Source: a bacterium SCSIO 12741
GTDB taxonomy: Bacteria; Bacteroidota; Bacteroidia; Flavobacteriales_G; Salibacteraceae
Assembly: GCA_024398055.1 (NCBI GenBank)
Contig: CP073749.1
Location: 2,108,594-2,172,593 of the forward strand
DNA length: 64,000 bases
Direction: 5' to 3'
Every line of letters starts with the position of its first letter. The stretch's first letter is position 1. Below are positions 8,460 to 28,418 of this stretch, piece by piece. The notes under the pieces were generated by a model. The model was given only the letters and a program-made list of their open reading frames with translations, did no database searches and had not been told where the DNA came from. A program made the translations under genes and the position numbers.

Positions 8460-8474
8460 CGTTGCAGTTTGCTG

Positions 8475-8509
8475 CAAAAATAAGGGTCACTGGCTTTGTG
8501 TAATTCAAA
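8475..8509 (-). promoter_or_regulatory. recG promoter
   Basis: On the minus strand TTTG (8509-8506), a 23-base spacer and TATTTTTG (8482-8475), exact to TAnnTTTG. It places the transcript start near 8468 and rules out the TTG at 8477 as start codon. Confidence 0.6.
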
Positions 8510-8601: not shown

Positions 8602-11600
8602 TTACTCGGATTCTCTAAGCAGAGTAATAGTTCCTTTCTCTTTGATGATGGTTTGATCCAGGTCTCTGATTTTGAGTTCGATGACATAGAAGTAGGTTCC
8701 GTCAGTTTGTGGAGCACCTGCTTGGTTGTCTCCTTTCCAGATCGGATCTTCTAAGGTCAACTTCTTCACTCTTCTTCCCCAACGGTCGTAGATAAAACCT
8801 TCGATGTTGTAGAAGTCACGCTTAAACCATTCCTTCATCACCTCTTCTCCATCGGCACAGTAGCAGGTAGCTACTCCATTGCTGTTGGGTCCACATGGGC
8901 AGTCTTCTGCCGCTGGAGTGATGATCGACCACCAGTCGTTCATGCCATCACCAAAGTCTTCACCCTTTTTCGCTGGGGTAAATACGTTCGGGAACTTAGG
9001 CTTAACGCGCTGATCAATGTCCATATCGATTTTTATACTGTCTCTACAGCCGGCATCGTTTACAGCGACCAACCATACATCGTAGGCTCCAAACAAATCG
9101 TACTTCACTTTCAACTCTGATTCAGGACCAGGGTGAGAAGTATAACGTCCGTGTGGGTCATACTCATCCCAACGTGATAGGGTATCTGCTGTTCCAAAGT
9201 ATGGACCTGATGCAGTGTACCACTCAAAGTATCCGCCTCCGGATGAGGTGATGGTAGTATCTCCGTAGTTGCCTTGCTCGGTGATGTTTACATAAGTAAC
9301 TTCTTCACCGATAAACTTCTTGTCTACCCCTGCTGGATTGGTTCTGATATCCGCATTTGGATTACCATAAACCTTGTAAGGAATATTCTGGAATCCTCTA
9401 CCATCCACGCGGCTTACACACCCTGTGATGGTATCTACATAGCGGGCAAACACATAGTGCAATCCATTGCTGTTATCCAATCCTGGATATTCGAAAGTAG
9501 ATCCGGTATCATCTGGAAGAGTAGACAGTGTATCTACATACCACTCAACGATCAATCCGGCTGGAGCATCTTTTACAAACAATCCCTGAATGCTATCCCC
9601 TTGACAGAACACAAAACGCTCTTCCACTTCTGGTAGCTCAATTTGTGCACGGTGGATCACCTTGGCTGAGTCAAAGGACAAACAGCCATACTCAGGGTGA
9701 TTGGTCCGGTAGCGAACAGCAAACTGATACTTGATCGTACGCTCCTGTCCGGCAGGAATCTGACATGGACGGAATCGAGCAATGTGAGGAAGTGGCATCC
9801 ATGAACCTCCATCCCAGAAGTTAAAGGCTAAATCTTCTATCGCATTCGGCCATCCTGAACTGGCTTTATCACCATAGCTCAACAGAATGTCGTTTCCGGG
9901 AATACCCAACTTGGTATCTCCTGTTCCTCCGATATTGATCCCTTTGGCAACTAAGAATTTGAAGGTGTCCGTTCTAATCTTGTTTGCCTGGATATCACAG
10001 AAGTCGTTACAGTAGTACATGTCCAGAATATCAATCTCCGGTGCTTCTACAACCGTGATTGGAATAGTGGCGCTGTTTCCACAGAATCCAGTTTTCTCAA
10101 TCTTCAAGGTATAGCTACCCGTAGTTCCAAACAAAGCAGGATCAATCACACCACGTTGGGCGTCGATAATGGCGTTTGGCACTTCCAAACAACTCCAGAT
10201 TCCACCTTTTCCTTCTACATCTACCGTATCAATGACTGGGTTACTCAAACAGAAGGAGTAGTCCAGGTAAGGTATACCGTTGTGTAAAATACCGTTGTAG
10301 GTCGTATCCCAGCCTGGGTGTACAGGTATCTCAAAGGTATCGGTGTTCCAACAGCCTTTGAATACAGTGTAGGTAAATACGGCTGTATCTACTTTACCAC
10401 CCGAGGTGTTAAACTTAGTTCCATCGATGAAGTAAGCCATCTTTCCATTGGCATCTGGAATGGAGTCAACTCCATATCCTTTAAAGTATCCACCTGGAGT
10501 CTTGGCAATCAACTGCTGAAACGTAGTATCATTCCACAGGGCACACAAGCTATCCGGAGTTAACAATCCGGCATCTGGTTTTCCAACAATCGTTACCAGG
10601 TTACTGTCCTTATTGGCACAAGCATCTCCGGTTACTTCATAAACTACCCAGAAGGATCCTGTACCAGATACTTTAGGGTCCCAAAGTCCCAGGCGATTGT
10701 TGATGATGCCCGCACCAGACCAGTTACCACCTGGATTACTAATAGTAGGTGGTGTAGGAGAGGTGAATTGAATATATCCATTGTCGATACATTGAGGGTC
10801 AAGGGTATCTGGTTTTACGTCGTATTCATTCACCACTTTTACGGCTACATCGAGGGTGTCGGTACAAATTTGATAAAGCGAATCCTTTACAATAACCCGG
10901 TAGATAGGGGTAGTGGTCAAATTGACGTTAGCCACTGCTGAATCCAGGTTGGTTGCACCTACAAATCCACCATTTGGCTTAGGATTCCAGTCATAAGTAA
11001 ACAAGCTGGAGCGCATACCAGAGCATGACCCGAATTGAGTTCTCGGAATGGTTTGCTGGGGATATCCACCTGACATAGCACCATTGCCACAAGCTCCTGG
11101 CCTCCAATTCCATTGTTGAGCGTAATATCCGGATGCATCATAGGTCACCGGGTCAAAGGCCATTTCGTGATGACCTGCATACCCATTTTGGTTTTGCCAG
11201 CACACTTCAACGATAATGTTCGAATTTCCATCCCAGTTGTACTGGTTGTCAAATACGTGAGTGTTCCATCCGAGTGTAGGAATTACGGCCTTGGGTGAAA
11301 AGACCTCAAACAATTGATTGGTGAGGAAGTTGTTGCCGACATGTTCATTCAAGCTGGTACAACCCATTTTGATTGTAAAGTTGTTGAACGGTGTGTACTG
11401 CGGACTACCTGGAGATCCGTAGATTTTGGTAATCTCCCAAGCGATGGACGAAATAGGTCCGGCTTCCATTCCACGGGCTTTTAAGTCTGAAGCCAGATAA
11501 ATGAACTGTGCCTTGGCCGATGGGTTGTCACTACCATATACTACGGGTAGGTTAATGGAGTTAGCACCGTTTTTCAGAGAACCATTTCCACCAATATTGA

Positions 11601-13503
11601 AGTTCTTGGTCGTTCCCTGGCAAGGAAACTGAACGGTTCCACAAGGACCATAATCGATACTTCCCTGATCCACCCATAAATCGACTGTTCCATTCAAGCA
11701 GAGCAGGCTGTCGGATACCTTGGCTTGCATGTTCGTAGGAAAGGGTTGGGTGACTTTAACCCACATGCTGTCGGTTCGTTCACATCCCGCATCCGATACT
11801 ACTTGAACTTCGAATTTGGTGTCTTTTGTAATTCCGGTAAAGTTGGGATTCTTGAGCGTGTCGTCGTTCAAAGTACCATCTCCACTCCAAGTGTAGGAGT
11901 ATTTGAAATTGGGATTCGATGGGTTTACATCCAACTGGCCAGCCCCTGGATTACAGAGAAATAAATCGTTAGGCATATTCAAACTGAAGCTATCCACCAC
12001 ATCAATGACCAGGGTGTCAATTTTCTGGCAGGCGAGTGCAACAAAACAGCTTAATACCAAATCAGATTCTACGGTAAGGACCGTTTTTTGGGTCACTATA
12101 ATGCTGCCCGTTGCTCCGGTATCGTTGATGGTGGTGTCCGGGAAAAAGTTTACTCCCGTTAGAAGCGGATCGCCGCTGATGGATTTCCAGTCATAGACCT
12201 GGCCGCCAAAGGCCTTGAATTTGAAGGTGTCTCCTGCACATATGGTTTGGTCGGGACCAGCGCTGGTAGCGTTTCTCACGTGAATTTCGAATACAGAGAA
12301 TCCGTTTCCTGGAAAATCGCAGTTGTCGTCATCAAAAGCAATAAAAAAGTTCTTTACCGGGTTGTCACCAATAGTGGCAGTCCACTTAAACCGAACTATT
12401 TTTTTGTTTCGGGCCAATGGAATTTCAGTCATCTGAAGTCCTGGCATGGCCAGAGCCAGGTTATGCGTAACGTAAATGGAATCAAAATCTTGATCAACTA
12501 ATGTATCTTCCCATTCAATGGTTTCTCCTTGACACACCTCCAGGGCATACCGGCCAATTTTGGTCGCCTTGCCTTTGATGTTTGAAACCCCGCTAACGTC
12601 TTTGGGAACCTTGTTTGTACAGGTGTTTACCGAAAACTGAATTTCCCTTCGGGTTTGGCCCTTGAGCCTACCTGTACATCGTTCATATTCATAGACCCAA
12701 AAGGCTACAATAAATTCTCCCGTGGTTGTCGGTTTAAAAGAAATGAGCCCGGAAGATGGATCCATGGTGATACCAGGAATTGGCTTTTGAATGGTGTAAG
12801 GTGGTGTTGGGTTGGCTGGTGTATTCGGCCCATAATAAGGCTGGGTGAATGAGTATACTAAACTGTCCCATTCCTGATCGTAGGTTCCAATTCCGTAGAA
12901 AACATCCTGACCGACACAAACGGAGGGCATAGGCTTGGCTTCGTCGGCAAAAACAGGTGCACTGTTCTTGGGAAAATCCAAAGTGTTGAAGGTGGTTACC
13001 AAATGGATGGGGTTACCATTGGAATTGGGATAATTGACCGAGCCATTTCGGCAGCAAGGTGTGGTTGTGGTAAATACCCAGCTATTACACTGAGACAGGG
13101 TTACCACCATCTCAAAGGTGTAAAGCTCATATCCCTTAGCCCCATTGGCTGAGGAACAATTCGTTTGTCTTTTGCGGCATACATCCGAAACATCCTTGGC
13201 TCCATTGGGGGCAGGGCGCTCTCCTGGCCCCGGAACATAATTTACTTTGGGTAGATTGAAGTTCTGGGTAGCTCCTGAAGAAGAACAAGTAGCCGTTACG
13301 GCTTGAAATTGGTTATTGAACCCAGCACCACCACAATAGCGAATAATCCCAACCGTGATTCTATACTGGTAGGTATTGGGCGCTGTACCAGGCCCAACAT
13401 AGGTGTATTTAATGCTTCCTCCGGCAAAGTGAGAGGCTTCAGCCTCCATTCCGAAGAAGATCATCAGGCAAAGTAGCAGAGTGAGTTTGATGAATGATTT
13501 CAT
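8602..13503 (-). CDS. P1: giant T9SS substrate with SHxxGG N-terminal domain and CHU_C (type B) tail
   Basis: A 1633-residue secreted protein. A signal peptide (1-23) ends just before SHFAGGSIKYTYVGPG. The N-terminal domain (about 24-300) has paired cysteines (VSDVC near 110, TPCCRNG near 150). Ig/PKD-like repeats follow (DQTICAGDTF, then DPLLTGVNFFPD). A jelly-roll-like module (about 640-870) contains LGWNTHVFDNQYNWDG and VEVCWQN. A long region shared with the next gene holds FNFWDGGSWMPLPH. The last 135 residues (FPNVFTP ... FIYDRWGRRV ... DGTYFYVI) are the gliding-motility-associated CHU_C domain, a T9SS type B signal. It is likely exported across the outer membrane and displayed or released; function unknown. 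First of four neighbouring paralogs, with its own strong terminator. Confidence 0.9.
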   Translation of the reverse strand: MKSFIKLTLLLCLMIFFGMEAEASHFAGGSIKYTYVGPGTAPNTYQYRITVGIIRYCGGAGFNNQFQAVTATCSSSGATQNFNLPKVNYVPGPGERPAPNGAKDVSDVCRKRQTNCSSANGAKGYELYTFEMVVTLSQCNSWVFTTTTPCCRNGSVNYPNSNGNPIHLVTTFNTLDFPKNSAPVFADEAKPMPSVCVGQDVFYGIGTYDQEWDSLVYSFTQPYYGPNTPANPTPPYTIQKPIPGITMDPSSGLISFKPTTTGEFIVAFWVYEYERCTGRLKGQTRREIQFSVNTCTNKVPKDVSGVSNIKGKATKIGRYALEVCQGETIEWEDTLVDQDFDSIYVTHNLALAMPGLQMTEIPLARNKKIVRFKWTATIGDNPVKNFFIAFDDDNCDFPGNGFSVFEIHVRNATSAGPDQTICAGDTFKFKAFGGQVYDWKSISGDPLLTGVNFFPDTTINDTGATGSIIVTQKTVLTVESDLVLSCFVALACQKIDTLVIDVVDSFSLNMPNDLFLCNPGAGQLDVNPSNPNFKYSYTWSGDGTLNDDTLKNPNFTGITKDTKFEVQVVSDAGCERTDSMWVKVTQPFPTNMQAKVSDSLLCLNGTVDLWVDQGSIDYGPCGTVQFPCQGTTKNFNIGGNGSLKNGANSINLPVVYGSDNPSAKAQFIYLASDLKARGMEAGPISSIAWEITKIYGSPGSPQYTPFNNFTIKMGCTSLNEHVGNNFLTNQLFEVFSPKAVIPTLGWNTHVFDNQYNWDGNSNIIVEVCWQNQNGYAGHHEMAFDPVTYDASGYYAQQWNWRPGACGNGAMSGGYPQQTIPRTQFGSCSGMRSSLFTYDWNPKPNGGFVGATNLDSAVANVNLTTTPIYRVIVKDSLYQICTDTLDVAVKVVNEYDVKPDTLDPQCIDNGYIQFTSPTPPTISNPGGNWSGAGIINNRLGLWDPKVSGTGSFWVVYEVTGDACANKDSNLVTIVGKPDAGLLTPDSLCALWNDTTFQQLIAKTPGGYFKGYGVDSIPDANGKMAYFIDGTKFNTSGGKVDTAVFTYTVFKGCWNTDTFEIPVHPGWDTTYNGILHNGIPYLDYSFCLSNPVIDTVDVEGKGGIWSCLEVPNAIIDAQRGVIDPALFGTTGSYTLKIEKTGFCGNSATIPITVVEAPEIDILDMYYCNDFCDIQANKIRTDTFKFLVAKGINIGGTGDTKLGIPGNDILLSYGDKASSGWPNAIEDLAFNFWDGGSWMPLPHIARFRPCQIPAGQERTIKYQFAVRYRTNHPEYGCLSFDSAKVIHRAQIELPEVEERFVFCQGDSIQGLFVKDAPAGLIVEWYVDTLSTLPDDTGSTFEYPGLDNSNGLHYVFARYVDTITGCVSRVDGRGFQNIPYKVYGNPNADIRTNPAGVDKKFIGEEVTYVNITEQGNYGDTTITSSGGGYFEWYTASGPYFGTADTLSRWDEYDPHGRYTSHPGPESELKVKYDLFGAYDVWLVAVNDAGCRDSIKIDMDIDQRVKPKFPNVFTPAKKGEDFGDGMNDWWSIITPAAEDCPCGPNSNGVATCYCADGEEVMKEWFKRDFYNIEGFIYDRWGRRVKKLTLEDPIWKGDNQAGAPQTDGTYFYVIELKIRDLDQTIIKEKGTITLLRESE

Positions 13504-13670
13504 AGATATTGGATTAGTATTTGCTTGTTGCTTTTTAGACGCCTCTCGAGGAAGTGCGTTGCCTGATTTTTTAAAAAATATTTTTCTTAAGTTACTGAAG
13601 ATCAGAGCATTAAATCCCTGCCTCGCCCATAACGGTGCAAGTGGGATTATTCAGTAGCAGATAAGATGTA

Positions 13671-13701
13671 AAGGCACCCAATTCAAGAACTTGAGGGCGC
13701 C
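13671..13701 (-). terminator. probable terminator of P2
   Basis: GGCACCC (13673-13679) faces GGGCGCC (13695-13701) with one mismatch, and an inner TCAAG-AA-CTTGA helix sits in the loop. On the minus strand it is followed only by TTTAC, so the T run is weak. It lies 20 bases after the stop at 13721. Confidence 0.45.
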
Positions 13702-13720
13702 GCTGGGTCAGTGACCGGCT

Positions 13721-16700
13721 CTATTTTGAGCCAATCACGAGCTTTTCATATCGGGTAGATCCCCCCGACTCCATTCTAATCATATAATTCCCTGTAGGTA
13801 ATTCATGAGTTTCAATTAATATTTGGTGGTTGCTGTATTCTTTAGAGTCCAAATAAAAGAGCTGGACGCCAAGCATGTTGTACCCGGATATTTTCCATTC
13901 TTTAATCTCCGGATGTACACTTATCGTAAGGTGATCATAAGCCGGATTTGGAGCCAATCGCATCGACCACGGAGTGCCAAATTCTTCCATTATTGACGTG
14001 GTGGTATCACAATCTATTCGCGCAACGAAAGCAGAATCTGTAGAATAGCAGAGCGAATCTGGAATCGCACTGCGGTAGGCAATGGGGAATTGGTAGGAGA
14101 TTTTATTCTTTACTCCCACAGGTAAGTTGCATGGACGGTAACGTCCAATATGAGGCAAAGGCATCCAGCTTCCACCATCCCAAAAGTTGAATTGAACATC
14201 ATTGACCGCATTGGGCCATCCGGTTGCTTGTTTGGAGGCATAGCTCACCAGGGTGTCATTTCCAGGAACTCCCAATTGAATATCACCGGTTCCACCTGCA
14301 TTAATTCCCTTAGGTACGTAAAGTTTAAGGGTGTCTGTGAATAGCTGAAATGCGGGGTTATTACAAGAATCTTTACACCAGATTTTTCCTGCGATGGCAA
14401 TTTCAGGAGGACTAACTACGGAGATAGGAATGGTGTTGCTGCTCCCGCAAAATCCATTGTTTTCTACTTTGAGGGTGTAGCTTCCATCGATCAATAGACG
14501 AGGATCAAATACCCCGTTTTGAGGATCAACCATGGCGCTGGGCACTTCAATACAGCTCCATAGTCCATTACTTCCTCCTACTGCAAGCGAATCAGCGTGA
14601 TCGGCAGCTGTACAGAAGCTGTGTACTACGTAGGGAGTTCCCTGGTTCAACACACCCAAATAGGTGCTGTTCCACTCTGGAAGAATTCGCACGCCAACAG
14701 TGGTGTCGGTAACACAGGCATCATTAATTCGGTGTCTGATCCAAACGGTGTCTTCTGGATAGGTGATGGGGTGGTAGGCCGACCCGTCTATGTAGTAGAC
14801 TTTTCCGTTCGTTGTGAAGACGGAATCTACTCCGAGTCCACTCATATATCCTCCGGGAACAAACGGTGTCAGTTTGTTTTCAATGGTGTCCGCCGAGCCA
14901 ACGCATAAGGAGTCGGTTAATATTCTTCCGTCCGGATAATCCTTGACAACGGCCAAAACACTGTCCTGATTTGCACAGGCATCTCCCGTTACAGAGTAGA
15001 GAATCCAATGCGACCCTATTCCAGCAATTTTGGGGTTCCAAACGCCATGAATAGAATCGGTAATTCCTGCGCCCTTCCAAACTCCACCAGGGGTAGGAGC
15101 GGTTAGTTGAGAGGGAGCCCGATCAAAACAAACGGGGTTTATTGAATCAGGGGTAGCATTGTATTGCGATACCACGTGAAGGTTGAGATAAGAAGTGTCT
15201 TTACAGGCTGGATTTAAGCTGTCGGAGATCACAACGTAGTATTGTTGTGCGGTAGCCAGGTTCGCCTGTACCTGAACGCTGTCGCCGGTACTTCCGCCAA
15301 CAAAGCCACCACCTATTTTGGGATGCCAATCGTAGGTGTATCGGGTAGATCGCACTCCCTGGCAGGTACCAAATCGGGTTTGGGGTAGGTAGCCTATCGG
15401 AAATCCTGCGGAATAATTGGGCATAAGACAAGCCTTAGGATTCCAATTAAAAAGCTGGTAATAATAGCCAGAAGAGGCATAGTTGACTGCGTCAAAAGCC
15501 ATTTCATGATCATCTGCAATACCGGTGGTATTTTCCCAGCAAATCTCTACGTATAAATTGGATTGACCATCCCAGGCATAAGGATTGTCAAGGGTGTGGT
15601 CATTCCATCCTAATTGAGGTGTATAGGACTTTGGGGAATACACTTCAACTAAGCCGGTTGGAAAGGATTGACCCGTTATTGCCGAAGCCGAAGTACAACC
15701 CATGCGAATGGTAAAGTTGTTAAAGGCGGGATTTGCCGAAGCCATTTTTTTGATTCTCCAGGAGATCGAATTGATGGGCCCGGATTGCATTCCTCGATTC
15801 TTTAAATCTGCCGCGGAGTACATCAAAATGGTTTTACTGGAAATCTTATTCGAGGCATAAATCACTGGATAGTTTAGTGAACTTCCAGAATTATTTAGGT
15901 TTCCTGATCCAATGGTAATGGTTTGATTGTTTCCGTAACAGTGGGCGTTGGTTTGACACGAGTATTGCGGTGATCCCTTGTACACCTGCAAATCGATCGT
16001 TGCGGACTGACAGATAAGCGTATCAGATGCCATGGCTTTCATGCCTATTGGAAACAAGGGGTTAGGTTGAATCTGAATGGAATCTACTCGATGACAACCT
16101 GAATCGGAATACACTTCTACATGAAAGGTGGTAGGGGTGGTTATTCCACTAAAGGTGGGGTTGGCAACGGTATCAGAATTGAGTAAATCGGCAGGAGTCC
16201 ATCGGTAGGAATATCCTAAAGCAGGTTGTGAAGGAATCGCACTCAGGCTGCCGGATTGCGTATTACACAATACCTGGTTTGGCGAAGTGCTAAGGCTAAA
16301 ACTATCTTCGGGTTGAACCAGAATTGTATCGTATACGCTGCAGATCGGTGATAGGGAGTCGCATGTACTAAGGCGGTCAATTTTAACCTGGAGTAAAGTG
16401 TTTTGAGTAGGTTTAAATTTGATACTTCCGGCTGTATCCTGATTCAAGGTATCTGGAAAGAAATTGCTTCCAACAAGAAGAGGGTCACCTGAAAGACTGG
16501 TCCAGGTGTAGTGCACTCCACCCACGGCTTTTAGCTGAACACCACTTCCCTTACAGGCTTTTGGGTTACCGGTTATTTTAGCCCCTGGAAGAATGGCTAC
16601 TTCATGAACGGCATAATTTGTTCCGGGGTAATCGCATCGATCATCTGTAAATCGAACATGGAAAAACCGATTCCCAGTTTTCCCGATAATCGATACCGCG

Positions 16701-17782
16701 GGGATGGTATAAGTTACTAGGGCAATGTTGGAAGAGGGGTGGCTAACGGAATAATGAGCACCCGGTAAACGATCGGCTACATCACAATATACCCGAACTG
16801 AGTCGGAAGCATTAGCGTCTACAATCGAGTCGGAAAACGTAATCAGATTACCGTTGCAGGTTTCTACCTTAAAGTTGCTCTTCGAGGTGCCGTTGCTGAG
16901 GTTCATTTGACTGGTGATCAGCTCAGGAACACTATTGGTACCGATATAGGAAGAAAATTCAATTTCTCGAAGTACCTGGCCTTTTAGCTCACCACATTCG
17001 TCGTATTCTTTGATCCAGACTCCAGCCAAGAAATTACCAGAAACGGTAGTGTTGAAACTCATGATTCCTGTTGCTGTATCCAGCTTGAGTCCAAGTATAG
17101 GTTGCTGACAGGTATAAGGTGATTTTGGTGTTCCTATACAGGCCATTTCGTAAGTCAATTTGTCTCCATCGGGATCATAAGCCCCAATAGCATAGGAAAA
17201 GTTTTGGCCGGTGTAGATTACTTTTTTTGGAAGTGCCCAGTCATACAATCGGGGACTACTGTTTTTAGGGAACTTGTTTTTGTGTAAAGTGGCGGTGTAC
17301 GTTCCGGTATTTGAAGTTGTGTTTATACTTCCCGCACGGCAGCAGGGGGTGGTAAAGGTAAGGGTGAGCAGTTGAGCGGAACCCACGGTTATTTCTCCTT
17401 CAAACATATGCGACTCGACTCCTGAAACATTAGAAGTAGAGGCGCATCGAGAGCTTTTGGCCGAGCACAAATCGGTTATGTCGCGGTTTCCGAAATTTGC
17501 AGGACGCATTCCGGGTTTGGCAACATACACAACCCGATTTAGAGTATAGGTCGTTACGCTACTACCGGCGGTTGCCGTTAAAACTACATTGTTGTTCGTG
17601 AAATTGGCTCCGGCACAATCTCTGAAAATCTCAGCTCTAACACGGTACTTATGGGTACCAGGTACGGAGCCGGGACCAACATAATCGTACTGAAGAGCAC
17701 CGGAAGAAATGTGAGAGGCGTTTAGGGTAAAACAACCTGCAAAAAATAGGAAAACAGTAAGGATAAGATTAAGAGCTTTCAT
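13721..17782 (-). CDS. P2: giant T9SS substrate, paralog of P1, Por-type (type A) tail
   Basis: About 1353 residues from the ATG at 17782, which gives a clean signal peptide (MKALNLILTVFLFFAGCFTLNA). The frame reaches back to a TTG at 17809, which would spoil the signal. The mature protein opens SHISSGALQYDYVGPG. It carries the same N-terminal cysteine pattern, Ig-like repeats (SGDPLLVGSNFFPDT), jelly-roll-like module (LGWNDHTLDNPYAWDG, VEICWENT) and FNFWDGGSWMPLPH region as P1. The C-terminus differs: the last 79 residues (RLAPNPAYDHLTI ... PTGNYMIRM) are a Por secretion tail, T9SS type A, usually cut off and replaced by an A-LPS anchor. Function unknown; probably a cell-surface protein. Confidence 0.9.
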   Translation of the reverse strand: MKALNLILTVFLFFAGCFTLNASHISSGALQYDYVGPGSVPGTHKYRVRAEIFRDCAGANFTNNNVVLTATAGSSVTTYTLNRVVYVAKPGMRPANFGNRDITDLCSAKSSRCASTSNVSGVESHMFEGEITVGSAQLLTLTFTTPCCRAGSINTTSNTGTYTATLHKNKFPKNSSPRLYDWALPKKVIYTGQNFSYAIGAYDPDGDKLTYEMACIGTPKSPYTCQQPILGLKLDTATGIMSFNTTVSGNFLAGVWIKEYDECGELKGQVLREIEFSSYIGTNSVPELITSQMNLSNGTSKSNFKVETCNGNLITFSDSIVDANASDSVRVYCDVADRLPGAHYSVSHPSSNIALVTYTIPAVSIIGKTGNRFFHVRFTDDRCDYPGTNYAVHEVAILPGAKITGNPKACKGSGVQLKAVGGVHYTWTSLSGDPLLVGSNFFPDTLNQDTAGSIKFKPTQNTLLQVKIDRLSTCDSLSPICSVYDTILVQPEDSFSLSTSPNQVLCNTQSGSLSAIPSQPALGYSYRWTPADLLNSDTVANPTFSGITTPTTFHVEVYSDSGCHRVDSIQIQPNPLFPIGMKAMASDTLICQSATIDLQVYKGSPQYSCQTNAHCYGNNQTITIGSGNLNNSGSSLNYPVIYASNKISSKTILMYSAADLKNRGMQSGPINSISWRIKKMASANPAFNNFTIRMGCTSASAITGQSFPTGLVEVYSPKSYTPQLGWNDHTLDNPYAWDGQSNLYVEICWENTTGIADDHEMAFDAVNYASSGYYYQLFNWNPKACLMPNYSAGFPIGYLPQTRFGTCQGVRSTRYTYDWHPKIGGGFVGGSTGDSVQVQANLATAQQYYVVISDSLNPACKDTSYLNLHVVSQYNATPDSINPVCFDRAPSQLTAPTPGGVWKGAGITDSIHGVWNPKIAGIGSHWILYSVTGDACANQDSVLAVVKDYPDGRILTDSLCVGSADTIENKLTPFVPGGYMSGLGVDSVFTTNGKVYYIDGSAYHPITYPEDTVWIRHRINDACVTDTTVGVRILPEWNSTYLGVLNQGTPYVVHSFCTAADHADSLAVGGSNGLWSCIEVPSAMVDPQNGVFDPRLLIDGSYTLKVENNGFCGSSNTIPISVVSPPEIAIAGKIWCKDSCNNPAFQLFTDTLKLYVPKGINAGGTGDIQLGVPGNDTLVSYASKQATGWPNAVNDVQFNFWDGGSWMPLPHIGRYRPCNLPVGVKNKISYQFPIAYRSAIPDSLCYSTDSAFVARIDCDTTTSIMEEFGTPWSMRLAPNPAYDHLTISVHPEIKEWKISGYNMLGVQLFYLDSKEYSNHQILIETHELPTGNYMIRMESGGSTRYEKLVIGSK

Positions 17783-17933
17783 AGGACTGGCGTTTTGGTT
17801 AAGACGCAAAAAAAACGGCAGGGTTGATTATGAAATTGGAATTTCTGGCAAAAAATCTCAAGTAGAATCCCTAAGTAATTAGAAATTCTTTCAATGTAAG
17901 TGTTTGATGGTCAGTGTATTTTGGCTGTTATTT

Positions 17934-20900
17934 TTACCGCGATACCTGGAATGAAATTTCCAGGGGATTACCGTCAAGCATACCCACCAAACGGTAGTTT
18001 CCAATGGCTAAATGCTGAACATCCAATTCGATAATCTGCCCACTTTCGTCCTGATAAATGGAATACGACATGACCTGTTTTCCTTGCTCGTCCATAACCC
18101 AAAAAACACTCGGATTGTTAACCGCAAATGGAATCTCAATCACCATACGATCGCTGGTTGGATTCGGATAGGCCCGGATTTGTTTTTCAAGATCAATTTG
18201 GGTCATTCCTAAGCAGATCAATTCCACCATCACGTCAATCGTATCTGTTCGTTTACAGCCTTTAGCGTCCGTAGTGATCAATTGCAACGTGCCACTCTGA
18301 GTTTCAGTGATGACCTTTGAGCTTTTACCATTGCTCCATTGGTAGGTACTCCCCGGATTTCCAGCATCAATAACGGCAGGATTTCCGGTGCAACCAAGTA
18401 CACTATCTGGAACGGCCTTACTCGGAATGGGATTTACATAAAAAGAATAAACGGCTGAATTACCGCAGTATCCATTGCTATCCAATCGGATTGAATGTGT
18501 TCCAACTCCGGCCAAGTAAGGCTTGAAATGGGTTCCGTTTACCCCGGGTCCACTCCAGGTGCCTCCAGGATGTTTCGCTTGCAACATGACTGTAGAATCG
18601 TATTCACAGAACACACGGTTTCCGGTATAGGTTGTGTCAAACACCGGGTCAACGCGTACCTGGAAGGAGGTGTCTTTTACGCATCCCGCTGAGCTGATGG
18701 CCTTGTAGTAAACCGTGGTTTGATCCGGATGATTGTAGGTAGCCAGGAAGTCCGGGTGATGGGCGTTGAAATTTCCGGTCAGGGAGTCAACCGCTTTTCC
18801 ATAGAAGAATCCGGTGGGGTATTGAGCGATTAGCGCATTGATGGAGTCCCGCTCACAGAAAGGCCCGAAGGTGCTGATTGCAGCCACGGGGACTGGAGAT
18901 CCGGTAACGGTAAGCGTATCGTAATATTTACAACCCAAAGAGTCGGTTAGTGTGGCTACTACTTGCGTGGTGCCTTTAGGAACTGTGAAGGATACTTGGG
19001 CTAGAGTAGGATCTGCAAATCGTGCTGCTGGTATCCAGGAATAGGATGTGGGAAGGGTGGATTGATGACTTGATGTAAGCGTTAATACTTCAGATTCGCA
19101 ACTACTCGTGTCAGGACCAATGGACCATTTCGGATCTGGAAAAGAAATCAAGGTAATATTCGCCGTGTCCTTACACACACCTTCCTTGTACTGAACCGCA
19201 AGTTGGATGGTCGTGGTCTGCTGGACACCTGCCTTAGGGCTTGGTGATAATGAATCAGACAACACCGAAGTAGGTGACCAGGAGAATTGGTAGAGGTCCG
19301 AGGGATTTTGATTTAAGGTTTTGAAGGCCACCAAGGGGCGATGGTAATTCGATGCTTGGGAGACCATCTGACTGTTGCAAATGACCGGGGTAAAGTTGTG
19401 GTTATTGACGAGACTGCTTAAAAATTGGGTGGTGTCGTAATGAACAGTGGCATTTTTTCCAACCAAACCGAGCATGTCGTAACAGACTTCCACTACGATA
19501 TTTGAATTTCCATCCCATTGGAAAGCCTGATTGAAATTTAGGTAATTCCAACCTGTGGTCAGCGCCAGGCTTTGGGAGTAATGGTAGGTGGATAATCCTT
19601 GTCTCCAAGCCAACATCGAAGTATCGTTTACATGGCCAATCTTCAAACTGTAATCAGTGATTGATTGGAGTCCATGAGGATCTTTGATGGAAAAGCCAAC
19701 GGAGTAAATCTGATCCAGGCTATCTAACCCCAAAGCCAATAGATCGCTTTTCCGGTAGAGGTATTGCTGACGAGATTTTGAAATCGTAGTGCCAAACGGA
19801 CATGGCCAGGACCTGATACCTACACCATGGGACAAATTGGTAGGAGTATTTGCTGTAATTACAGGTTCAAGAAAATCCAATAAACTGTTTTCTCTCGGAT
19901 GCCCAAACGGTGATTGATTGGGGTCAAAAAGGTTAACCTTTAGGGGGACACTATCTCCCGAGCAGATTTGCTGCAACCCGGCTGAAATTTCCAAAGAATC
20001 CGGTTGGTGGAAAGTTTCCACTTGAATCGATTTCTCTTGAATGCATCCTTCATTGTTAGACACAATCGCGGTGTAAGTAGCAGTTAAGGAATCTCCAATG
20101 CTAGGGTTAGGCAAAGTGTCATTTGAAACCAAGTGACTCGGAGTCCATTTGTATTGGTAAGTGTAACCGCCAAGGTTGGGTTGGGCGGTCAAAGGAAAGC
20201 TTGTACCGTAGAAGCACAACGTGGTATCTGCACTGGTGTTCAGAGTGAATTTAGTGCCTGGTTTTATCCAAAATGTATCTCGTTTGGTAGTGGGTACACT
20301 GTTGCAGTTGAGGTATACCTTACCCGATAATTCAATTTGAGTGGGATTCATCACCCGAAAGTGGGCTTGAAAATTCGTATCGGTGGACGAGGTATCCAAC
20401 CAAACATTCTGTCCTAATCCCGAGAAAACCAGTGTATCACCGCTAATTCTCCTCCAGGAATAGTGATTGCTTCCGTAGGTTTTTATGGATATGGTGTCAC
20501 CCTGGCAATGCCTAAAGGTGTCGAGGGAGCCACCAAATTCAGTTTGCACCCCAACTCCATTATTGATGTAAATAGTATAGATCGTTGAACCTCTTCCGGG
20601 GTAGTTGCAGCGGTCGTCTGTAAAATCGGTGTGAAAGAAGGCCTTTCGAAAGATTTTAGTGGAACTCACGAAAAAGGTGTAGGTAGCCACAGACTGGTTT
20701 TTGCTAATGGATTTGATCGTCATGCTGCTTTGAGGAAATACGTCCTTCAACGAGCTTTTGAGGTAGACCGTGTCCGTAGAGTTGGGGTCGGTAAAGGTAT
20801 CCTTGAAACTATTCCAGGTGCCTTCTTCTACACGGATGGCATTGCTGGATAGCTGCGTAGCACCCATTCCGGTGAGGTTTGAAATGGACGAAGCAACGGG

Positions 20901-21851
20901 TTGATTATTGTTACAAATGTTGGCAATGAATTGGAAATCTCTCAGGGTCTGAGCCTTCCATCTGCCGGTACAATGCTCGTATTCCTTCACCCAATAAGCA
21001 ACTACTCGCTTACCCGCAGTGGTGGGTTTAACGGTGATCTTTCCAGTGAGGGTATCCAAGGAAAACCCTGCAGCCGGTTGGCGGTAAGTGAAGTTTCCTA
21101 CATAATTGGCACAAGTGTTGGCCCATTGTAAGGCACAAGCCAAATTGTAGGTCACTGAATCTTTATCGAGATCATAAGCGGCAACGCTGTAGTGACTGGT
21201 TTGGCCAACACAGACATTGGGTCGCGGTCTGGCTTCATCGGTAAAATTGGGCGAACTATTCGTTGGGAAATTGAGGTTGTCAAATCGTGTTTCCACCCAC
21301 ATGCCTCCGGAATTAATGTTGGAGTTAGCTGTATTTCTGCAGCATTGGGGTTGGAAGCCAAGCGTCCAAGAATTGCAATGCACGAGAGAGATGATTCCAG
21401 AAAATTTATAGCGAACAAAACCTAGGACGGTTCCTCCACGGCATCGGGTATTTGGGGTGCGATTTGGATCAAGTACTTTATCACAAACATCCGATACTTC
21501 TTCAGAAACCAAAGTCGTGGTTCCCGACTGATTGCTAATTCCTGCGTAGGGTCCTCCAAATGGGGCAGGAGTTGGGGCAACAAATGCGAGGTTGGCTAAG
21601 GTATAAGTTGTATTAATGTTGCGGCTACTGCATTTTGCAGTGACCATTGCTGAAGGTACGTTGTACTGCGCTCCAGAACAATCTCTCAACACGGATACTT
21701 CTATGTAGTAGTTGCTCGTCCCTATGAGTGAGCCGGGCCCGATGTACTTATATTTTATGGCACCACCCGCTACGTGGGAAGCACTTGCTGACACAGCAAG
21801 AAGTACCAAAAAACTCAATAGGGTAAAACGGTTTATTAGGTCAGACTTCAT
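17934..21851 (-). CDS. P3: giant T9SS substrate, tandem twin of P4, Por-type tail
   Basis: A 1305-residue protein with signal peptide (1-24, ending SASA) and then SHVAGGAIKYKYIGPG. The N-terminal domain keeps LRDCSG, VSDVCDK and QCCRNT cysteine motifs. Ig-like repeats follow, then a jelly-roll-like module (YLYRKSDLLALGLDSLD ... FQWDGNSNIVVEVCYD), repeats with FCERDSINAL and GGTWSGPG, and a type A tail in the last 81 residues (IRAYPNPTSDRMVIEIP ... LAIGNYRLVGM). It starts only 43 bases after the stop of P4, so the two are probably one transcript. No catalytic motif seen. Confidence 0.9.
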   Translation of the reverse strand: MKSDLINRFTLLSFLVLLAVSASASHVAGGAIKYKYIGPGSLIGTSNYYIEVSVLRDCSGAQYNVPSAMVTAKCSSRNINTTYTLANLAFVAPTPAPFGGPYAGISNQSGTTTLVSEEVSDVCDKVLDPNRTPNTRCRGGTVLGFVRYKFSGIISLVHCNSWTLGFQPQCCRNTANSNINSGGMWVETRFDNLNFPTNSSPNFTDEARPRPNVCVGQTSHYSVAAYDLDKDSVTYNLACALQWANTCANYVGNFTYRQPAAGFSLDTLTGKITVKPTTAGKRVVAYWVKEYEHCTGRWKAQTLRDFQFIANICNNNQPVASSISNLTGMGATQLSSNAIRVEEGTWNSFKDTFTDPNSTDTVYLKSSLKDVFPQSSMTIKSISKNQSVATYTFFVSSTKIFRKAFFHTDFTDDRCNYPGRGSTIYTIYINNGVGVQTEFGGSLDTFRHCQGDTISIKTYGSNHYSWRRISGDTLVFSGLGQNVWLDTSSTDTNFQAHFRVMNPTQIELSGKVYLNCNSVPTTKRDTFWIKPGTKFTLNTSADTTLCFYGTSFPLTAQPNLGGYTYQYKWTPSHLVSNDTLPNPSIGDSLTATYTAIVSNNEGCIQEKSIQVETFHQPDSLEISAGLQQICSGDSVPLKVNLFDPNQSPFGHPRENSLLDFLEPVITANTPTNLSHGVGIRSWPCPFGTTISKSRQQYLYRKSDLLALGLDSLDQIYSVGFSIKDPHGLQSITDYSLKIGHVNDTSMLAWRQGLSTYHYSQSLALTTGWNYLNFNQAFQWDGNSNIVVEVCYDMLGLVGKNATVHYDTTQFLSSLVNNHNFTPVICNSQMVSQASNYHRPLVAFKTLNQNPSDLYQFSWSPTSVLSDSLSPSPKAGVQQTTTIQLAVQYKEGVCKDTANITLISFPDPKWSIGPDTSSCESEVLTLTSSHQSTLPTSYSWIPAARFADPTLAQVSFTVPKGTTQVVATLTDSLGCKYYDTLTVTGSPVPVAAISTFGPFCERDSINALIAQYPTGFFYGKAVDSLTGNFNAHHPDFLATYNHPDQTTVYYKAISSAGCVKDTSFQVRVDPVFDTTYTGNRVFCEYDSTVMLQAKHPGGTWSGPGVNGTHFKPYLAGVGTHSIRLDSNGYCGNSAVYSFYVNPIPSKAVPDSVLGCTGNPAVIDAGNPGSTYQWSNGKSSKVITETQSGTLQLITTDAKGCKRTDTIDVMVELICLGMTQIDLEKQIRAYPNPTSDRMVIEIPFAVNNPSVFWVMDEQGKQVMSYSIYQDESGQIIELDVQHLAIGNYRLVGMLDGNPLEISFQVSR

Positions 21852-21894
21852 TGCGTTGGATTTAATTCAAAAATAAAGATTTGAAATTTTCCGA

Positions 21895-24800
21895 TTATCG
21901 CGATACCTGAAAAGCAATTTCTATCGGATTTCCATCAAGCATTCCAACTAATCGATAGCTTCCGATTGCCAAATGCTGAACATCAAGCTCGATATATTGG
22001 CCCTTATTTTGGTCAGCTATGGAATGACTCATCACTCGTTTTCCTTGGTTGTCAATGATCCAAAAAACGCCCGGGTTTTGAACCGTAAAAGGAATTTCAA
22101 TCACCATGCGATCGCTGGTAGGATTTGGATAGGCTCGAATTCGATTTTCAAGATCAACTTGAGCAACTCCGAGGCAGATTAATTCCACCATCACGTTGAT
22201 GGTATCGGTTCGCTTACAGCCTTGCGCATCCGTTGTGATCAACTGCAGTGTTCCGCTCTGTGTTTCGGTTATTACCTGAGAACTTTTTCCATTACTCCAT
22301 TGGTAGACACTTCCGGGGTTTCCAGCGTCAATGATGGCAGGGTTTCCGGTACAGCCCATTACGCTGTCTGGAACGGCTTTACTTGGCATTGGATTTACAT
22401 AGAAAGAATAGACTGCTGAATTGCCACAGTAGCCATTACTGTCAACCCTAATTTGATGAGTACCGGTTCCGGCAACATAAGGGCTAAAATGGGTTCCGCT
22501 TACTCCTGGACCGCTCCAGGTGCCACCAGGGTGTTTGGCCTGTAACATTACGGTAGAATCATTATCACAGAACATACGACTTCCGGTATAAGTGGTGTCA
22601 AATACAGGATCTACGCGTACCTGGAAAGAGGTGTCCTTTTCACAGCCAATTCCGCTTACTGCCTTGAAATTAATGGTGGTTAGATCCGGGTGGTTGTAGG
22701 TGGCCAAAAAGTCTGGATGATGGGCGTTGAAATTACCGGTGATGGAATCCACCGATTTTCCGTAGAAATACCCGCCTTGAAATTGAGCTTGTAAGGCGTT
22801 AATCGAGTCACGCTCACAGAATGGTCCAAAGGTGCTAATGCCTGCAATTGGTACAGGTGACCCGGTTACCACCAGGGTATCGAAATATTCGCATCCCAAG
22901 GAGTCCGTTAACTTGGCTATTACCTGGGTTTGTCCCGAAGGAACGTTGAAGGATACTTGAGCCAGGCTCGGATCTACAAATTGAGCTGCCGGGCTCCAGG
23001 AGTAGCTTGCTGGAAATGGTGATTGATGACTGGAAGTAAAGGTTAGTACTTCAGCCTCACAGGTGGCCGTATCTGGTCCAATTGCAAATTGAGGATCGGG
23101 AGAGGAGATCAACGTGATCTGTGCAGTATCTGGGCAAACTCCCTCTTTGTACTGAATGGCCAAGCCGATGGTGGTGTTTTGGGTAATGCCCGCTTTCGGA
23201 TTTGGAGCTAATGAATCAGAAAGAACATGGCTCGGTGTCCAGGTATAATCATAAAGGTAGGATGGATCATTTCTCATGGTCTTTAACGCAATCATTGGCA
23301 ACTGATACGCAGAACTTAGAGACAGCATTTGGTTGGTACAAATAGCGGGAGAAGAGGCTTGATTGGTTACGATGTTGCAGAGGTAACTGGTGACACCATA
23401 ATAGACAGCTGGGTTATTTCCGGTTACTCCATTTCGATCGTAACACACTTCTACAATAAGATTGGACTTGCCATCCCATTGGAATCCTTGATTAAAATTC
23501 AGGTAATTCCAGCCTACATGCAGAGATAGGTTTTGAGAATAATGGACTGCTGTAAGTCCTTGGTTCCAACCACTAACAGCCGTATCACTCGTAAGTCCGA
23601 TTTTCAAATTGTAATCGGGAATGGAGTTTACTCCGTGAAGGTCGCGTATCGCAAAGCCCAAGGAATAAATGAAATCCAAACTGTCTAAGCCCATGGCGAT
23701 CAAGTCGCTTTTTCGGTAGAGATATCGTTGCCTTGCTTTGGAGGTAAGCACTCCAAATGGACATGGCCAGGACGCTGCAGATTGAGCTGAAGACGTGTTG
23801 AAGGGTGTACCTGAAGGAGTTGCTGGCTGAAGTATGTGGAGCAAGCTGTCTTCCCGAGGGTGCCCAAAGGGAGATTGTGTCGGATCGAAGAGGTTAACGT
23901 TGATTTGGACACTGTCGCCAGCGCAAATATGCTGTGTGTTGGTTGTAAGAACGAGTGAATCTGAACGCTGGAAGGATTTAACGAAAACAGATTGGGTTTG
24001 AATACACCCTTCATTGTTTTCTACGGTTACGGTGTAGTTGGCACTCACTGAATCGCCTACCGTTGGAGAAGCAATCGTGTCATTGGAAACCAGATTGGAG
24101 GGTTCCCATTTATATTGATAGGTGTATCCGCTCAAATTGGGTTGAGCCGAAATTCCAAAACTCACTCCATCGTAACAGAGTGCGGTGTCTGAACTGGTGC
24201 TCAGGTTAAATCGAGTTCCGGGAATGAGCCAGAAAGTATCTTTTTTAAGGGTGGCAGTGTTGTTGCAAAAGAGGGTGGCCAGGGCGGAGACTTCCACTTG
24301 AGTGGGGTTTTGCACCTGGATGTGCGCCTGAAAATTCGTGTCGCCCGGCACCGTGTCCAGCCAAATATTTTGACCCGGGCCCGAAAACTTAAAGGTATCT
24401 CCTGAAATGCTTTTCCAAGTGTAGTGATCGCTCCCTGATAATTCAATCAAAGAAGTGTCTCCCGTGCACAGATTGAAGGTGTCATTGATTCCATGAATAT
24501 CGGCAAGCAAACCTCCGGCACCGTCAATAAGCAAGGTGTAGGTAGTGATGCCTTGGCCGGGAATATCGCACCTGTCGTCTGTGTACCTGGTTTGAAAGAA
24601 AATCTGTCTGGAGATCGCTAAGGAAGGCACAAAAAAGTTGTAGGTAGCTACCGATTGGTTTTTACTTAAGGAGGTAATGGTCATCGAACTTTGTGGGAAT
24701 ACATCTTTTAGTGTCGAGGTGAGGTATACCGTGTCAACCGTATTTGGATCGGTAAAGGTGTCTTTAAAACTGACCCAAGTTCCTTTTTGAACCTTAATCT

Positions 24801-25812
24801 TTCGATCGCCCAATCGGACGGCACCATTTCCGGTAAGTGCTGATACGGAAGCAAATTGAGCAGGTTTGTTTGCACAGAGATGAACATTAAATTGGAAATC
24901 CCGCAGCGTTTGAGCCTTCCATCTACCCGTACAACGTTCGTATTCTTTCACCCAATAGCCAATCATCCGTTTTCCTGCACTCGCAGGTGTTAAAGTGATT
25001 TCACCGGTAACGGTATCCAAATTAAAATTTGCCACAGGTTGCGTATAACTGAAATTGCCAACGTAGTTAGCACAGGCGGTAGGAGATGTTCTAACGCAAG
25101 CCAGGTTGTAGGTTATAGAATCATGCTCCTGGTCTTGCACGGCCACGCTGTAGTAACTCGTTTGACCAACACAAACATTAGGACGAGATCTTTGATCCTC
25201 CAAAAAATGGGGAGAACTGTTCGTCGGGAAATTCAGGTTGTCGAAACGAACTTCTACATACAGGTTAGCCGAATTGATATTGGCGTTACCCGTGTTTCGC
25301 CCACCCGTAATGGTGTGACCAAGGGTCCAATAGTTACATTGAGTTAAGGTGATGAGGCTTGCATACTTAAAGCGCATGTAGCCTTGAATCGTACCTCCTC
25401 TGCAGTTGGTTAAAGGATTCTGATTGGGGTTAAGTACTTTATCACAAACATCAGAGACTTCCTCAGCAACCATCGTCGTAGAACCCGATTGCTGGCTGAT
25501 TCCTACATAGGGACCTCCAAATGGAGTAGGTGTGGGGGCTACAAAAGGCAAATTACTGAGGGAGAAGTTGGTGACCGTTGATGAACCACTGCATTTGGCA
25601 GTGACTGCTGCTGTGGTCACGGTGTAGGCAACACCCGCACAATCTCTTAATACGCTTGCTTCAACATAGTATTGATAAGTTCCAGGGGTAGAACCTGGGC
25701 CAACATATTTGTATTTAATGGATCCTCCTGCCACATGGCCGGCAAATAGATCGATTGAGTTTAGGGTTAGTAGGCTGATTAATAAAAGGGTACAGGTAAG
25801 GATGGATTTCAT
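21895..25812 (-). CDS. P4: giant T9SS substrate, tandem twin of P3, Por-type tail
   Basis: A 1305-residue protein, exactly the length of P3 and near-identical to it in long stretches, especially the last 160 residues. The signal peptide ends LFA, followed by GHVAGGSIKYKYVGPG, so the usual Ser before His is Gly. The CC pair found in P1, P2, P3 and P5 is replaced by GG (TITGGRNTG). The jelly-roll-like module (YLYRKSDLIAMGLDSLD ... FQWDGKSNLIVEVCYD) and the tail (IRAYPNPTSDRMVIEIP) are intact. First gene of the probable P4-P3 transcript; about 270 bases of non-coding DNA lie upstream. Function unknown. Confidence 0.9.
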   Translation of the reverse strand: MKSILTCTLLLISLLTLNSIDLFAGHVAGGSIKYKYVGPGSTPGTYQYYVEASVLRDCAGVAYTVTTAAVTAKCSGSSTVTNFSLSNLPFVAPTPTPFGGPYVGISQQSGSTTMVAEEVSDVCDKVLNPNQNPLTNCRGGTIQGYMRFKYASLITLTQCNYWTLGHTITGGRNTGNANINSANLYVEVRFDNLNFPTNSSPHFLEDQRSRPNVCVGQTSYYSVAVQDQEHDSITYNLACVRTSPTACANYVGNFSYTQPVANFNLDTVTGEITLTPASAGKRMIGYWVKEYERCTGRWKAQTLRDFQFNVHLCANKPAQFASVSALTGNGAVRLGDRKIKVQKGTWVSFKDTFTDPNTVDTVYLTSTLKDVFPQSSMTITSLSKNQSVATYNFFVPSLAISRQIFFQTRYTDDRCDIPGQGITTYTLLIDGAGGLLADIHGINDTFNLCTGDTSLIELSGSDHYTWKSISGDTFKFSGPGQNIWLDTVPGDTNFQAHIQVQNPTQVEVSALATLFCNNTATLKKDTFWLIPGTRFNLSTSSDTALCYDGVSFGISAQPNLSGYTYQYKWEPSNLVSNDTIASPTVGDSVSANYTVTVENNEGCIQTQSVFVKSFQRSDSLVLTTNTQHICAGDSVQINVNLFDPTQSPFGHPREDSLLHILQPATPSGTPFNTSSAQSAASWPCPFGVLTSKARQRYLYRKSDLIAMGLDSLDFIYSLGFAIRDLHGVNSIPDYNLKIGLTSDTAVSGWNQGLTAVHYSQNLSLHVGWNYLNFNQGFQWDGKSNLIVEVCYDRNGVTGNNPAVYYGVTSYLCNIVTNQASSPAICTNQMLSLSSAYQLPMIALKTMRNDPSYLYDYTWTPSHVLSDSLAPNPKAGITQNTTIGLAIQYKEGVCPDTAQITLISSPDPQFAIGPDTATCEAEVLTFTSSHQSPFPASYSWSPAAQFVDPSLAQVSFNVPSGQTQVIAKLTDSLGCEYFDTLVVTGSPVPIAGISTFGPFCERDSINALQAQFQGGYFYGKSVDSITGNFNAHHPDFLATYNHPDLTTINFKAVSGIGCEKDTSFQVRVDPVFDTTYTGSRMFCDNDSTVMLQAKHPGGTWSGPGVSGTHFSPYVAGTGTHQIRVDSNGYCGNSAVYSFYVNPMPSKAVPDSVMGCTGNPAIIDAGNPGSVYQWSNGKSSQVITETQSGTLQLITTDAQGCKRTDTINVMVELICLGVAQVDLENRIRAYPNPTSDRMVIEIPFTVQNPGVFWIIDNQGKRVMSHSIADQNKGQYIELDVQHLAIGSYRLVGMLDGNPIEIAFQVSR

Positions 25813-27821: not shown

Positions 27822-28418
27822 ATGTTTCTTGAAGACAAAATTACCAAAGAGCACAAAGTTGGCTGGATCGAAGTAATCTGTGGATCTATGTTTTCCGGAA
27901 AAACGGAAGAGCTTATCCGCCGTTTAAAAAGGGCCCAATTTGCCAAGCAAAAGGTCGAAATTTTTAAGCCGGCTGTAGATACTCGCTACGATGATGAGGA
28001 GGTGGTTTCTCACGATGAAAACAGCATTCCTTCAACGCCTGTCCCTTCTTCTGGCAACATTCTCATTTTGGCAAATGATGTGGAAGTGGTGGGAATTGAT
28101 GAAGCTCAATTTTTTGACGATAATCTTCCTCAAGTTTGCAATCAATTGGCCAATAGCGGTGTTCGCGTAATTGTGGCAGGGTTGGATATGGACTTTCAAG
28201 GTCGCCCATTTGGACCCATGCCTCATTTGATGGCCATTGCAGAATACGTAACCAAGGTGCATGCGATTTGTGTGCGTACCGGTAAGTTGGCCAACTTTTC
28301 TTACCGCACCAGTGAAGGGGAAAGTCTGGTGGAATTGGGCGCCCAGGAGAATTACATTCCACTTTCGAGAGAGGCTTATATGGAAGCCTTGAGCGAAGAC
28401 CAAAAGGAGGAAGAGTGA
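27822..28418 (+). CDS. tdk: thymidine kinase
   Basis: A 198-residue type II thymidine kinase that phosphorylates thymidine to dTMP in the salvage pathway. It shows the P-loop GSMFSGKT (21-28), DEAQFFD with the catalytic Glu region, and [14 protein letters not shown]. The frame extends upstream to 27771, but that part overlaps the promoter, so the ATG at 27822 is the start. The usual zinc site (two Cys pairs) is reduced: CVRT replaces CxxC, and the last pair reads PLSREAY, so zinc is probably not bound. The stop overlaps the alr GTG start (GTGA), indicating an operon. Confidence 0.93.

Follow-up and report, generated by a model that had tools for sequence, protein, structure and literature searches.

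Most of what is known about cargo proteins of the type IX secretion system (T9SS) comes from a few pathogens and a single gliding model. We analysed a 64,000-nucleotide stretch of the genome of bacterium SCSIO 12741 (positions 2108594-2172593 of the 5.10-Mb single-contig genome, hereafter the window), and in particular four very large genes, P1 to P4, that lie in a row within it. We consider these to encode, probably, T9SS-exported surface adhesins of a family that occupies two conserved chromosomal sites and has been diversified by gene conversion of whole segments, a head of ~500 residues and a stalk of ~1000.

Several described systems resemble P1-P4 in part. The RgpA, Kgp and HagA proteins of Porphyromonas gingivalis carry modular adhesin domains (CAD, DUF2436) that are near-identical between paralogues, and gene conversion or allelic exchange has been proposed to account for their diversity (PMC5266723). 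They share with P1-P4 the status of T9SS substrates whose modular domains are re-combined between paralogues, but the units exchanged in P. gingivalis are small (~160 amino acids, aa) repeated domains in protease or HagA genes, whereas in the P1-P4 family they are whole heads and stalks of protease-free giants, and the domains of the two systems are unrelated by Pfam and NCBIfam. In Flavobacterium johnsoniae the moving gliding adhesin is SprB, a giant T9SS surface protein that binds SprF (PMC9143113); an SprB-type gene beside sprF, both here and in a related genome (G005), shares the N-terminal domain of P1-P4, although P1-P4 themselves lack both SprB repeats and a neighbouring sprF, and their tails are mostly type A-like. 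The leucine-rich-repeat surface proteins THC0290_0171, 0174, 0175, 0176 and 0186 of Flavobacterium psychrophilum are likewise cell-surface T9SS proteins (TIGR04183) with near-consecutive locus tags, but their leucine-rich-repeat fold is unlike P1-P4 and we found no report of head/stalk mosaics there (PMC5682007). TANFOR polymorphic toxins, which are also large, come from Bacteroidota, have a conserved N-terminal domain and are linked to the T9SS, carry C-terminal toxin domains (PMC7073777), whereas P1-P4 have T9SS tails at that end and no match to any TANFOR model. The reshuffling of adhesin domains among T9SS substrates in P. gingivalis (PMC5266723) and giant T9SS adhesins such as SprB are already known; new, as far as the literature shows, are the uncatalogued head family, the two conserved array sites, and the two-way exchange of entire heads and stalks. 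No paper naming the head domain or these arrays was found in the open-access literature.

Exchange of heads and stalks between paralogues

P1-P4 are arranged head-to-tail on the minus strand, with intergenic gaps of 43-217 bp (Table 1), and bear out an earlier reading of the window from its letters alone (the preliminary description), which had recognised four giant T9SS substrates in a row on one strand. All six pairs align with E 1e-79 or better over ~1190 columns or more, far beyond chance, and by sequence P1-P4 are shown to be paralogues, homologous along nearly their whole length; single alignments give 28% identity for P1/P3 (1218 aa), 43% for P1/P2 (1282 aa) and 67% for P3/P4 (1282 aa). 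The family thereby survived a comparison over the N-terminal 300 residues, where a lack of alignment had been named as the observation that would count against it. Distant pairs are most similar in these first 300 residues (P1/P3 41-46% there vs 22-28% elsewhere), and close pairs are most similar toward the C-terminus (P3/P4 rising from 62-66% to 79-88%, P1/P2 from 40-44% to 46-55%).

The pattern becomes sharper when synonymous divergence is followed along the genes in 100-residue steps, as the proportion of synonymous differences (pS), which saturates near 0.7-0.9. P1 and a fifth member, P5, lie in opposite orientation ~50 kb apart; they are 55-66% identical over residues 1-600 (pS 0.64-0.92) and intermediate up to residue 1003, and from residue 1004 to the end (the last 630) they are 98-100% identical with a pS of only 0.01-0.05. 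Their similarity ends at the gene, the 3' flanks being unrelated. Two further members, P6 and P7, are 1.07 Mb apart and share an internal tract of 98-99% identity (pS 0.04-0.14) in genes that are otherwise 65-88% identical. Among relatives, which were compared at one genome per species, a neighbouring pair in G017 has heads 43-61% identical followed by an identical C-terminal 2931 nt, while a neighbouring pair in G022 presents the reverse case, with 1481 nt of head identical and then stalks of 32-48% identity. Synonymous divergence this low goes beyond what protein constraint alone explains and most simply indicates recent copying between paralogues; we infer gene conversion as the mechanism because copy number, orientation and flanks were kept. 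Another relative (G001, L044 2697-16305) has a tandem array of three copies with overall identities of 90-96%, in which the heads are more diverged than the stalks.

Phylogenetic trees of the three-gene arrays of G022, G017 and G005, together with G025 and the copies from the present genome (P6 being joined across its frameshift for the alignment only), disagree between the two ends of the gene. In the head tree (residues 75-540) neighbours group by genome with support of 96-100, and a clade of position-3 genes is rejected (approximately unbiased test, p-AU 0.0014), whereas in the stalk tree (residues 600-1540) the position-3 genes group with 100/100 support, and same-genome pairs are rejected with p-AU 1e-6 for G017 and 7e-34 for G005. 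The heads underlying this conflict are not identical (85-94% in G017, 62-79% in G005). As the trees change over near residues 500-600, this was used as the boundary between head and stalk. Intragenic tracts of near-zero synonymous divergence combined with incongruent trees are the mark of a family diversified by gene conversion, and both are found here; exchange of heads and stalks between paralogues is very well supported. The preliminary description had regarded the N-terminal domain as the constant element and the rest as variable, a view rejected by the segment identities, the pS profiles and the trees alike, since exchange goes in both directions.

Head, tail and coordinates of the array

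Each of P1-P4 has a visible hydrophobic leader, a candidate Sec signal peptide, that ends right before an [SG]HxxxG...Y..GPG opening. A stricter [SG]HxxGG motif selects P1, P3, P4 and P5; P2, for which the SHxxGG opening had originally been reported as well, reads SHISSG and is recognised as equivalent through alignment. The cysteine motifs, reported as the same ordered set in every copy, turn out to be mostly present but not fixed: P1 has RYC rather than RDC, and further departures in P2 and P4 are listed in Table 1. No Pfam or NCBIfam model matches the N-terminal domain (residues 24-300) in P1-P4 or in five divergent members, in agreement with the original description of this domain as one of unknown function, and the same two collections return no enzyme family, as had also been anticipated, and no toxin family in P1-P4. 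The Ig-like modules said to follow the N-terminal domain are barely detectable by profile (Ig_7 in P1, 27.5 bits vs a cut-off of 27.3). A separate module at window positions 10894-11706 (P1 residues 600-870), with the pattern '...YLASDLKARGM..ISSI....NNFTIKMGCTS...GWN.H.FDN.Y.WDGNSN.IVEVC', occurs also in P2-P4 and in an SprB-type gene (Q1, below) and has no Pfam match.

AlphaFold2 (AF2) models cover the head: the 415-residue P3 head was modelled with 22 relatives, and the 163-residue first module of P1 with 24, with predicted local distance difference test (pLDDT) and predicted template modelling (pTM) scores as in Table 1. The P3 head is predicted to be all beta. The best match of its third module is the fourth extracellular cadherin (EC) domain of a protocadherin (EC4; 111 residues, root-mean-square deviation 2.4 A, 11% identity); it has the same fold as cadherin and protocadherin EC domains (PDB 6bx7 and others), a common one, with no evidence of descent or of homophilic binding. 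A search for solved-structure relatives of P3 by sequence returned none (best E 0.24). For P1 module 1, structure searches gave background matches only (best Z 7.5, no Foldseek match below 0.001), and the fold relatives considered, FetP/P19 and the constant domains of Ig and the T-cell receptor, were set aside as background at Z up to 7.5. We read the model of module 1 as an Ig-like sandwich for which no specific relative was found, not as a new fold. Taken together, the predicted head fold would be compatible with a binding or cap domain and does not show one.

A T9SS tail had been assigned to each of P1-P4. The sorting domain is firm in two of the four, P1 (CHU_C, type B) and P2 (Por_Secre_tail, type A), while the type A matches of P3 and P4 fall under the cut-off of 27 bits. 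The genome encodes T9SS machinery, with matches to PorU (1287 bits), SprA_N (554 bits) and GldJ (above cut-off), and we regard export of P1-P4 by the T9SS as well supported. Scanning for CHU_C revealed another evenly spaced tandem array, of type B T9SS proteins, at genome positions 3013206-3023785, with four such tails ~3.4 kb apart on open reading frames of 1112-1130 aa. A 1490-aa secreted protein at window positions 48660-53132 has a PorZ/type A-like tail under cut-off and an N-terminal domain unrelated to that of P1-P4.

P2 was called from a TTG codon, but the ATG nine codons in, at 17782, is the better start and likely the true one. The array is bounded by recG on one side and by a methyltransferase gene on the other, with thymidine kinase and alanine racemase genes beyond.

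Table 1. Positions, within the window, of P1-P5, their mapped domains and flanking genes
Feature	Position	Strand	Description
P1	8602..13503	-	1633 aa; T9SS surface protein with type B (CHU_C) tail; paralogue of P2-P4, closest to P5
P1 head domain 1 (N-terminal module)	12946..13434	-	Orphan Ig-like sandwich (predicted); AF2 pLDDT 85.2, pTM 0.81
P1 residues 1004-1633	8602..10494	-	Recently homogenised tract; 98-100% identical to P5, synonymous differences 1-5%
P1 CHU_C (type B) T9SS sorting domain	8665..8820	-	35.3 bits, cut-off 27
P2	13721..17809	-	1362 aa; type A tail; paralogue with 43% identity to P1 (1282 aa aligned)
P2 head domain 1 (N-terminal module)	17243..17716	-	Lacks two conserved cysteines
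P2 type A T9SS sorting domain	13733..13951	-	Por_Secre_tail, 38 bits, cut-off 27
P3	17934..21851	-	1305 aa; paralogue, 67% to P4
P3 three-module N-terminal head	20535..21779	-	415 aa; AF2 pLDDT 85.7, pTM 0.82; model residues 289-409 a cadherin-like module, Z 11.3
P3 type A tail	17988..18170	-	Under cut-off, 22.8 vs 27 bits
P4	21895..25812	-	1305 aa; paralogue of P3
P4 N-terminal module	25201..25740	-	GGR in place of CCR
P4 type A tail	21949..22131	-	Under cut-off, 24.2 vs 27 bits
P5, 5' part	63342..64000	+	Whole protein 1632 aa; gene runs past the window to genome position 2176833; conversion partner of P1
recG	6360..8477	-	Array flank, here and at the six-gene array in relative G017
Alanine racemase gene (alr)	28415..29542	+	Opposite array flank, common to G017 and G002

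Family range, chromosomal sites and the SprB-type members

Searching the genome with the P3 head found nine places, and a profile search twelve. P5 occupies genome positions 2171935-2176833 and is followed, just outside the window edge, by P6. Three members are more distant: the SprB-repeat giant Q1; Q2, of 720 aa with PKD and CHU_C domains; and Q3, of 902 aa with CHU_C and an opening only loosely similar. SprB repeats (PF13573) are present in P6, P7 and Q1. Frameshifts occur in P6 (genome 2176971-2182198, L010 5472-10699), at the 5' end of P7 (L012), in the SprB-type gene (L051 near 4300 and 5080) and in a carboxylase beta-subunit gene (L010 near 11110), those in P6, P7 and the carboxylase gene being losses of one base within a G run. 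For P6, P7 and the SprB-type gene, slippage at G runs as a means of phase variation was rejected as the first explanation because the neighbouring housekeeping carboxylase subunit shows the same one-base deletion; most likely these frameshifts are assembly errors.

The head profile matches 59 of the 60 nearest genomes with 1-21 copies each, usually several, at the start of open reading frames of ~350-4900 aa, and among the matches listed neighbouring copies are spaced like P1-P4 in at least 13 other genomes. The closest named relatives are metagenome bins of Flavobacteriales/Crocinitomicaceae. When the phylum was sampled evenly, strong matches (E at or below 1e-20) were found in 23 other genomes, all of the same class; outside it only weak partial matches occurred (E 7e-6 at best), which we take not to be the domain. 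As judged from these profile matches, the head domain is widespread in the class as a multi-copy module. The preliminary description had singled out the array as the best candidate in the window for an undescribed system; that it is a system special to the window is not supported, given the breadth of the domain and the presence of the same array at the same locus in other genera. A search for carriage of the family on plasmids gave no match.

The arrays occupy two conserved chromosomal loci. The first, between recG and alr, has four members in the present genome and six in G017, while in G002 at least two adjoin alr. At the second, flanked by a carboxylase beta-subunit gene and the gene of an Ig-like (Big_5) lipoprotein, three genes are found in each of G022, G017 and G005, and P5-P6 in the present genome.

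In Q1 the same head domain is combined with a type B tail and no fewer than 20 SprB repeats, and a PorP/SprF gene lies 11 bp downstream. PorP/SprF (PF11751) matches occur at 12 places in the genome and at none inside the window, the nearest, at genome position 2209492, being the one that adjoins Q1. The same order is seen in G005, where a head-domain SprB-type giant (intact, 4347 aa) is followed by sprF. The head-domain SprB-repeat giant with the PorP/SprF gene directly after it, found in two genera (L051 649-13784, genome 2197148-2210283; L054 4863-18813), is a candidate gliding adhesin locus. This SprB/SprF linkage is, by association, the best functional lead for the head domain; P1-P4 themselves gave no match to SprB repeats (PF13573) at E 1.

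Function and alternative explanations

Swapping of heads and stalks and copying between sister genes are a frequent bacterial route to changing sticky surface proteins. We propose that in P1-P4 a disulphide-rich head of ~500 residues, consisting of an orphan Ig-like domain and then cadherin-like sandwiches, would be carried on a stalk of ~600-1200 residues of Ig-like and other beta modules, with the C-terminal T9SS tail responsible for export and for attachment to the outer membrane. If studied species are a guide, type A tails may be anchored to lipopolysaccharide via PorU/PorV, and type B tails to a PorP/SprF-like barrel. Recombination among the arrayed genes takes place within the coding sequence: conversion can copy one stalk onto different heads (P1/P5) or one head onto different stalks (as in the relatives), so that heads, stalks and anchors are re-combined while the gene copies are retained. 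The all-beta modular architecture and the occurrence of the head domain on an SprB-type giant suggest that P1-P4 probably function in adhesion, the class that had already been put forward as likeliest; they would then be located at the surface, with ligand binding by the head and selection favouring variation.

Some observations weigh against this proposal. Structural and enzyme-associated proteins have Ig and cadherin folds as commonly as adhesins do, and the tails of P3 and P4 score under cut-off. In the least saturated array, that of G001, the ratio of nonsynonymous to synonymous differences (pN/pS) in the heads is ~0.14-0.23, which indicates purifying selection; positive selection is not indicated. 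No Bacteroidetes-type promoter was recognised upstream of P1, P2, P3 or P4; across the window such promoter matches number 2 vs 2.4 expected, and the terminator count is at chance level.

The main rival is structural: the stalks might coat the cell like a matrix or surface layer, or form filaments, with the head as a self-assembly or cap domain that conversion keeps compatible within a cell. The convergence of paralogue heads within a genome would be expected if heads interact, and the many copies per genome, the long beta-modular stalks and the purifying selection also fit such a role, but in P1/P5 and the pair in G017 it is, on the contrary, a single stalk that carries divergent heads, and the head domain is also found on an SprB-type protein, the known adhesin class. 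We see a matrix role as possible but unlikely. That P1-P4 are gliding adhesins proper, riding the T9SS/Gld motor like SprB and driving gliding, is more doubtful still: GldJ scores above cut-off, SprA and SprF-like genes are present, the family head sits on an SprB-type giant and P6 and P7 carry SprB repeats, yet P1-P4 have no such repeats, the window has no PorP/SprF gene, and three of the four carry tails like type A, the covalently anchored class. The position of the N-terminal domain directly after the putative signal peptide, in proteins that differ widely in content and in length (~350 to 4900 aa), could point to an aid in secretion or folding (periplasmic handling of very long T9SS cargo) rather than a surface function; this is improbable, as many T9SS cargos are without the domain (in this genome, CHU_C tails at ~40 places vs ~10 head domains) and heads undergo exchange and, in close pairs, change faster than the stalks do. 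Finally, although G017 and G022 are draft metagenome bins with exactly identical tracts and the assembly of the present genome has probable indel errors in runs of G, collapsed or chimeric repeats arising in assembly are a very poor explanation for the mosaic pattern, since the tracts in the one-contig genome are 97-100% identical with scattered differences, and the tree incongruence rests on non-identical sequences.

Returning to P1-P4 as adhesins, a tentative and rather unlikely extension is that the family would provide the class with an undescribed combinatorial surface display, in which gene conversion places one head family on stalks of varied length and on both anchor types (the lipopolysaccharide-linked type A and the PorP/SprF-linked type B), including an SprB-type motile adhesin. 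If true, fixed and moving supports on a cell could carry the same binding head, or a single support could carry many. In any case, a domain that is very common yet uncatalogued (in 59 of the 60 nearest genomes, with up to 21 copies) gains a predicted fold, a range, a genomic address and an evolutionary mode, and the SprB/SprF link makes a binding role of the head testable in culturable gliding species. The trading of heads and stalks among giant paralogues matters for annotation, for orthology, and for the reading of 'conserved' parts as functional.

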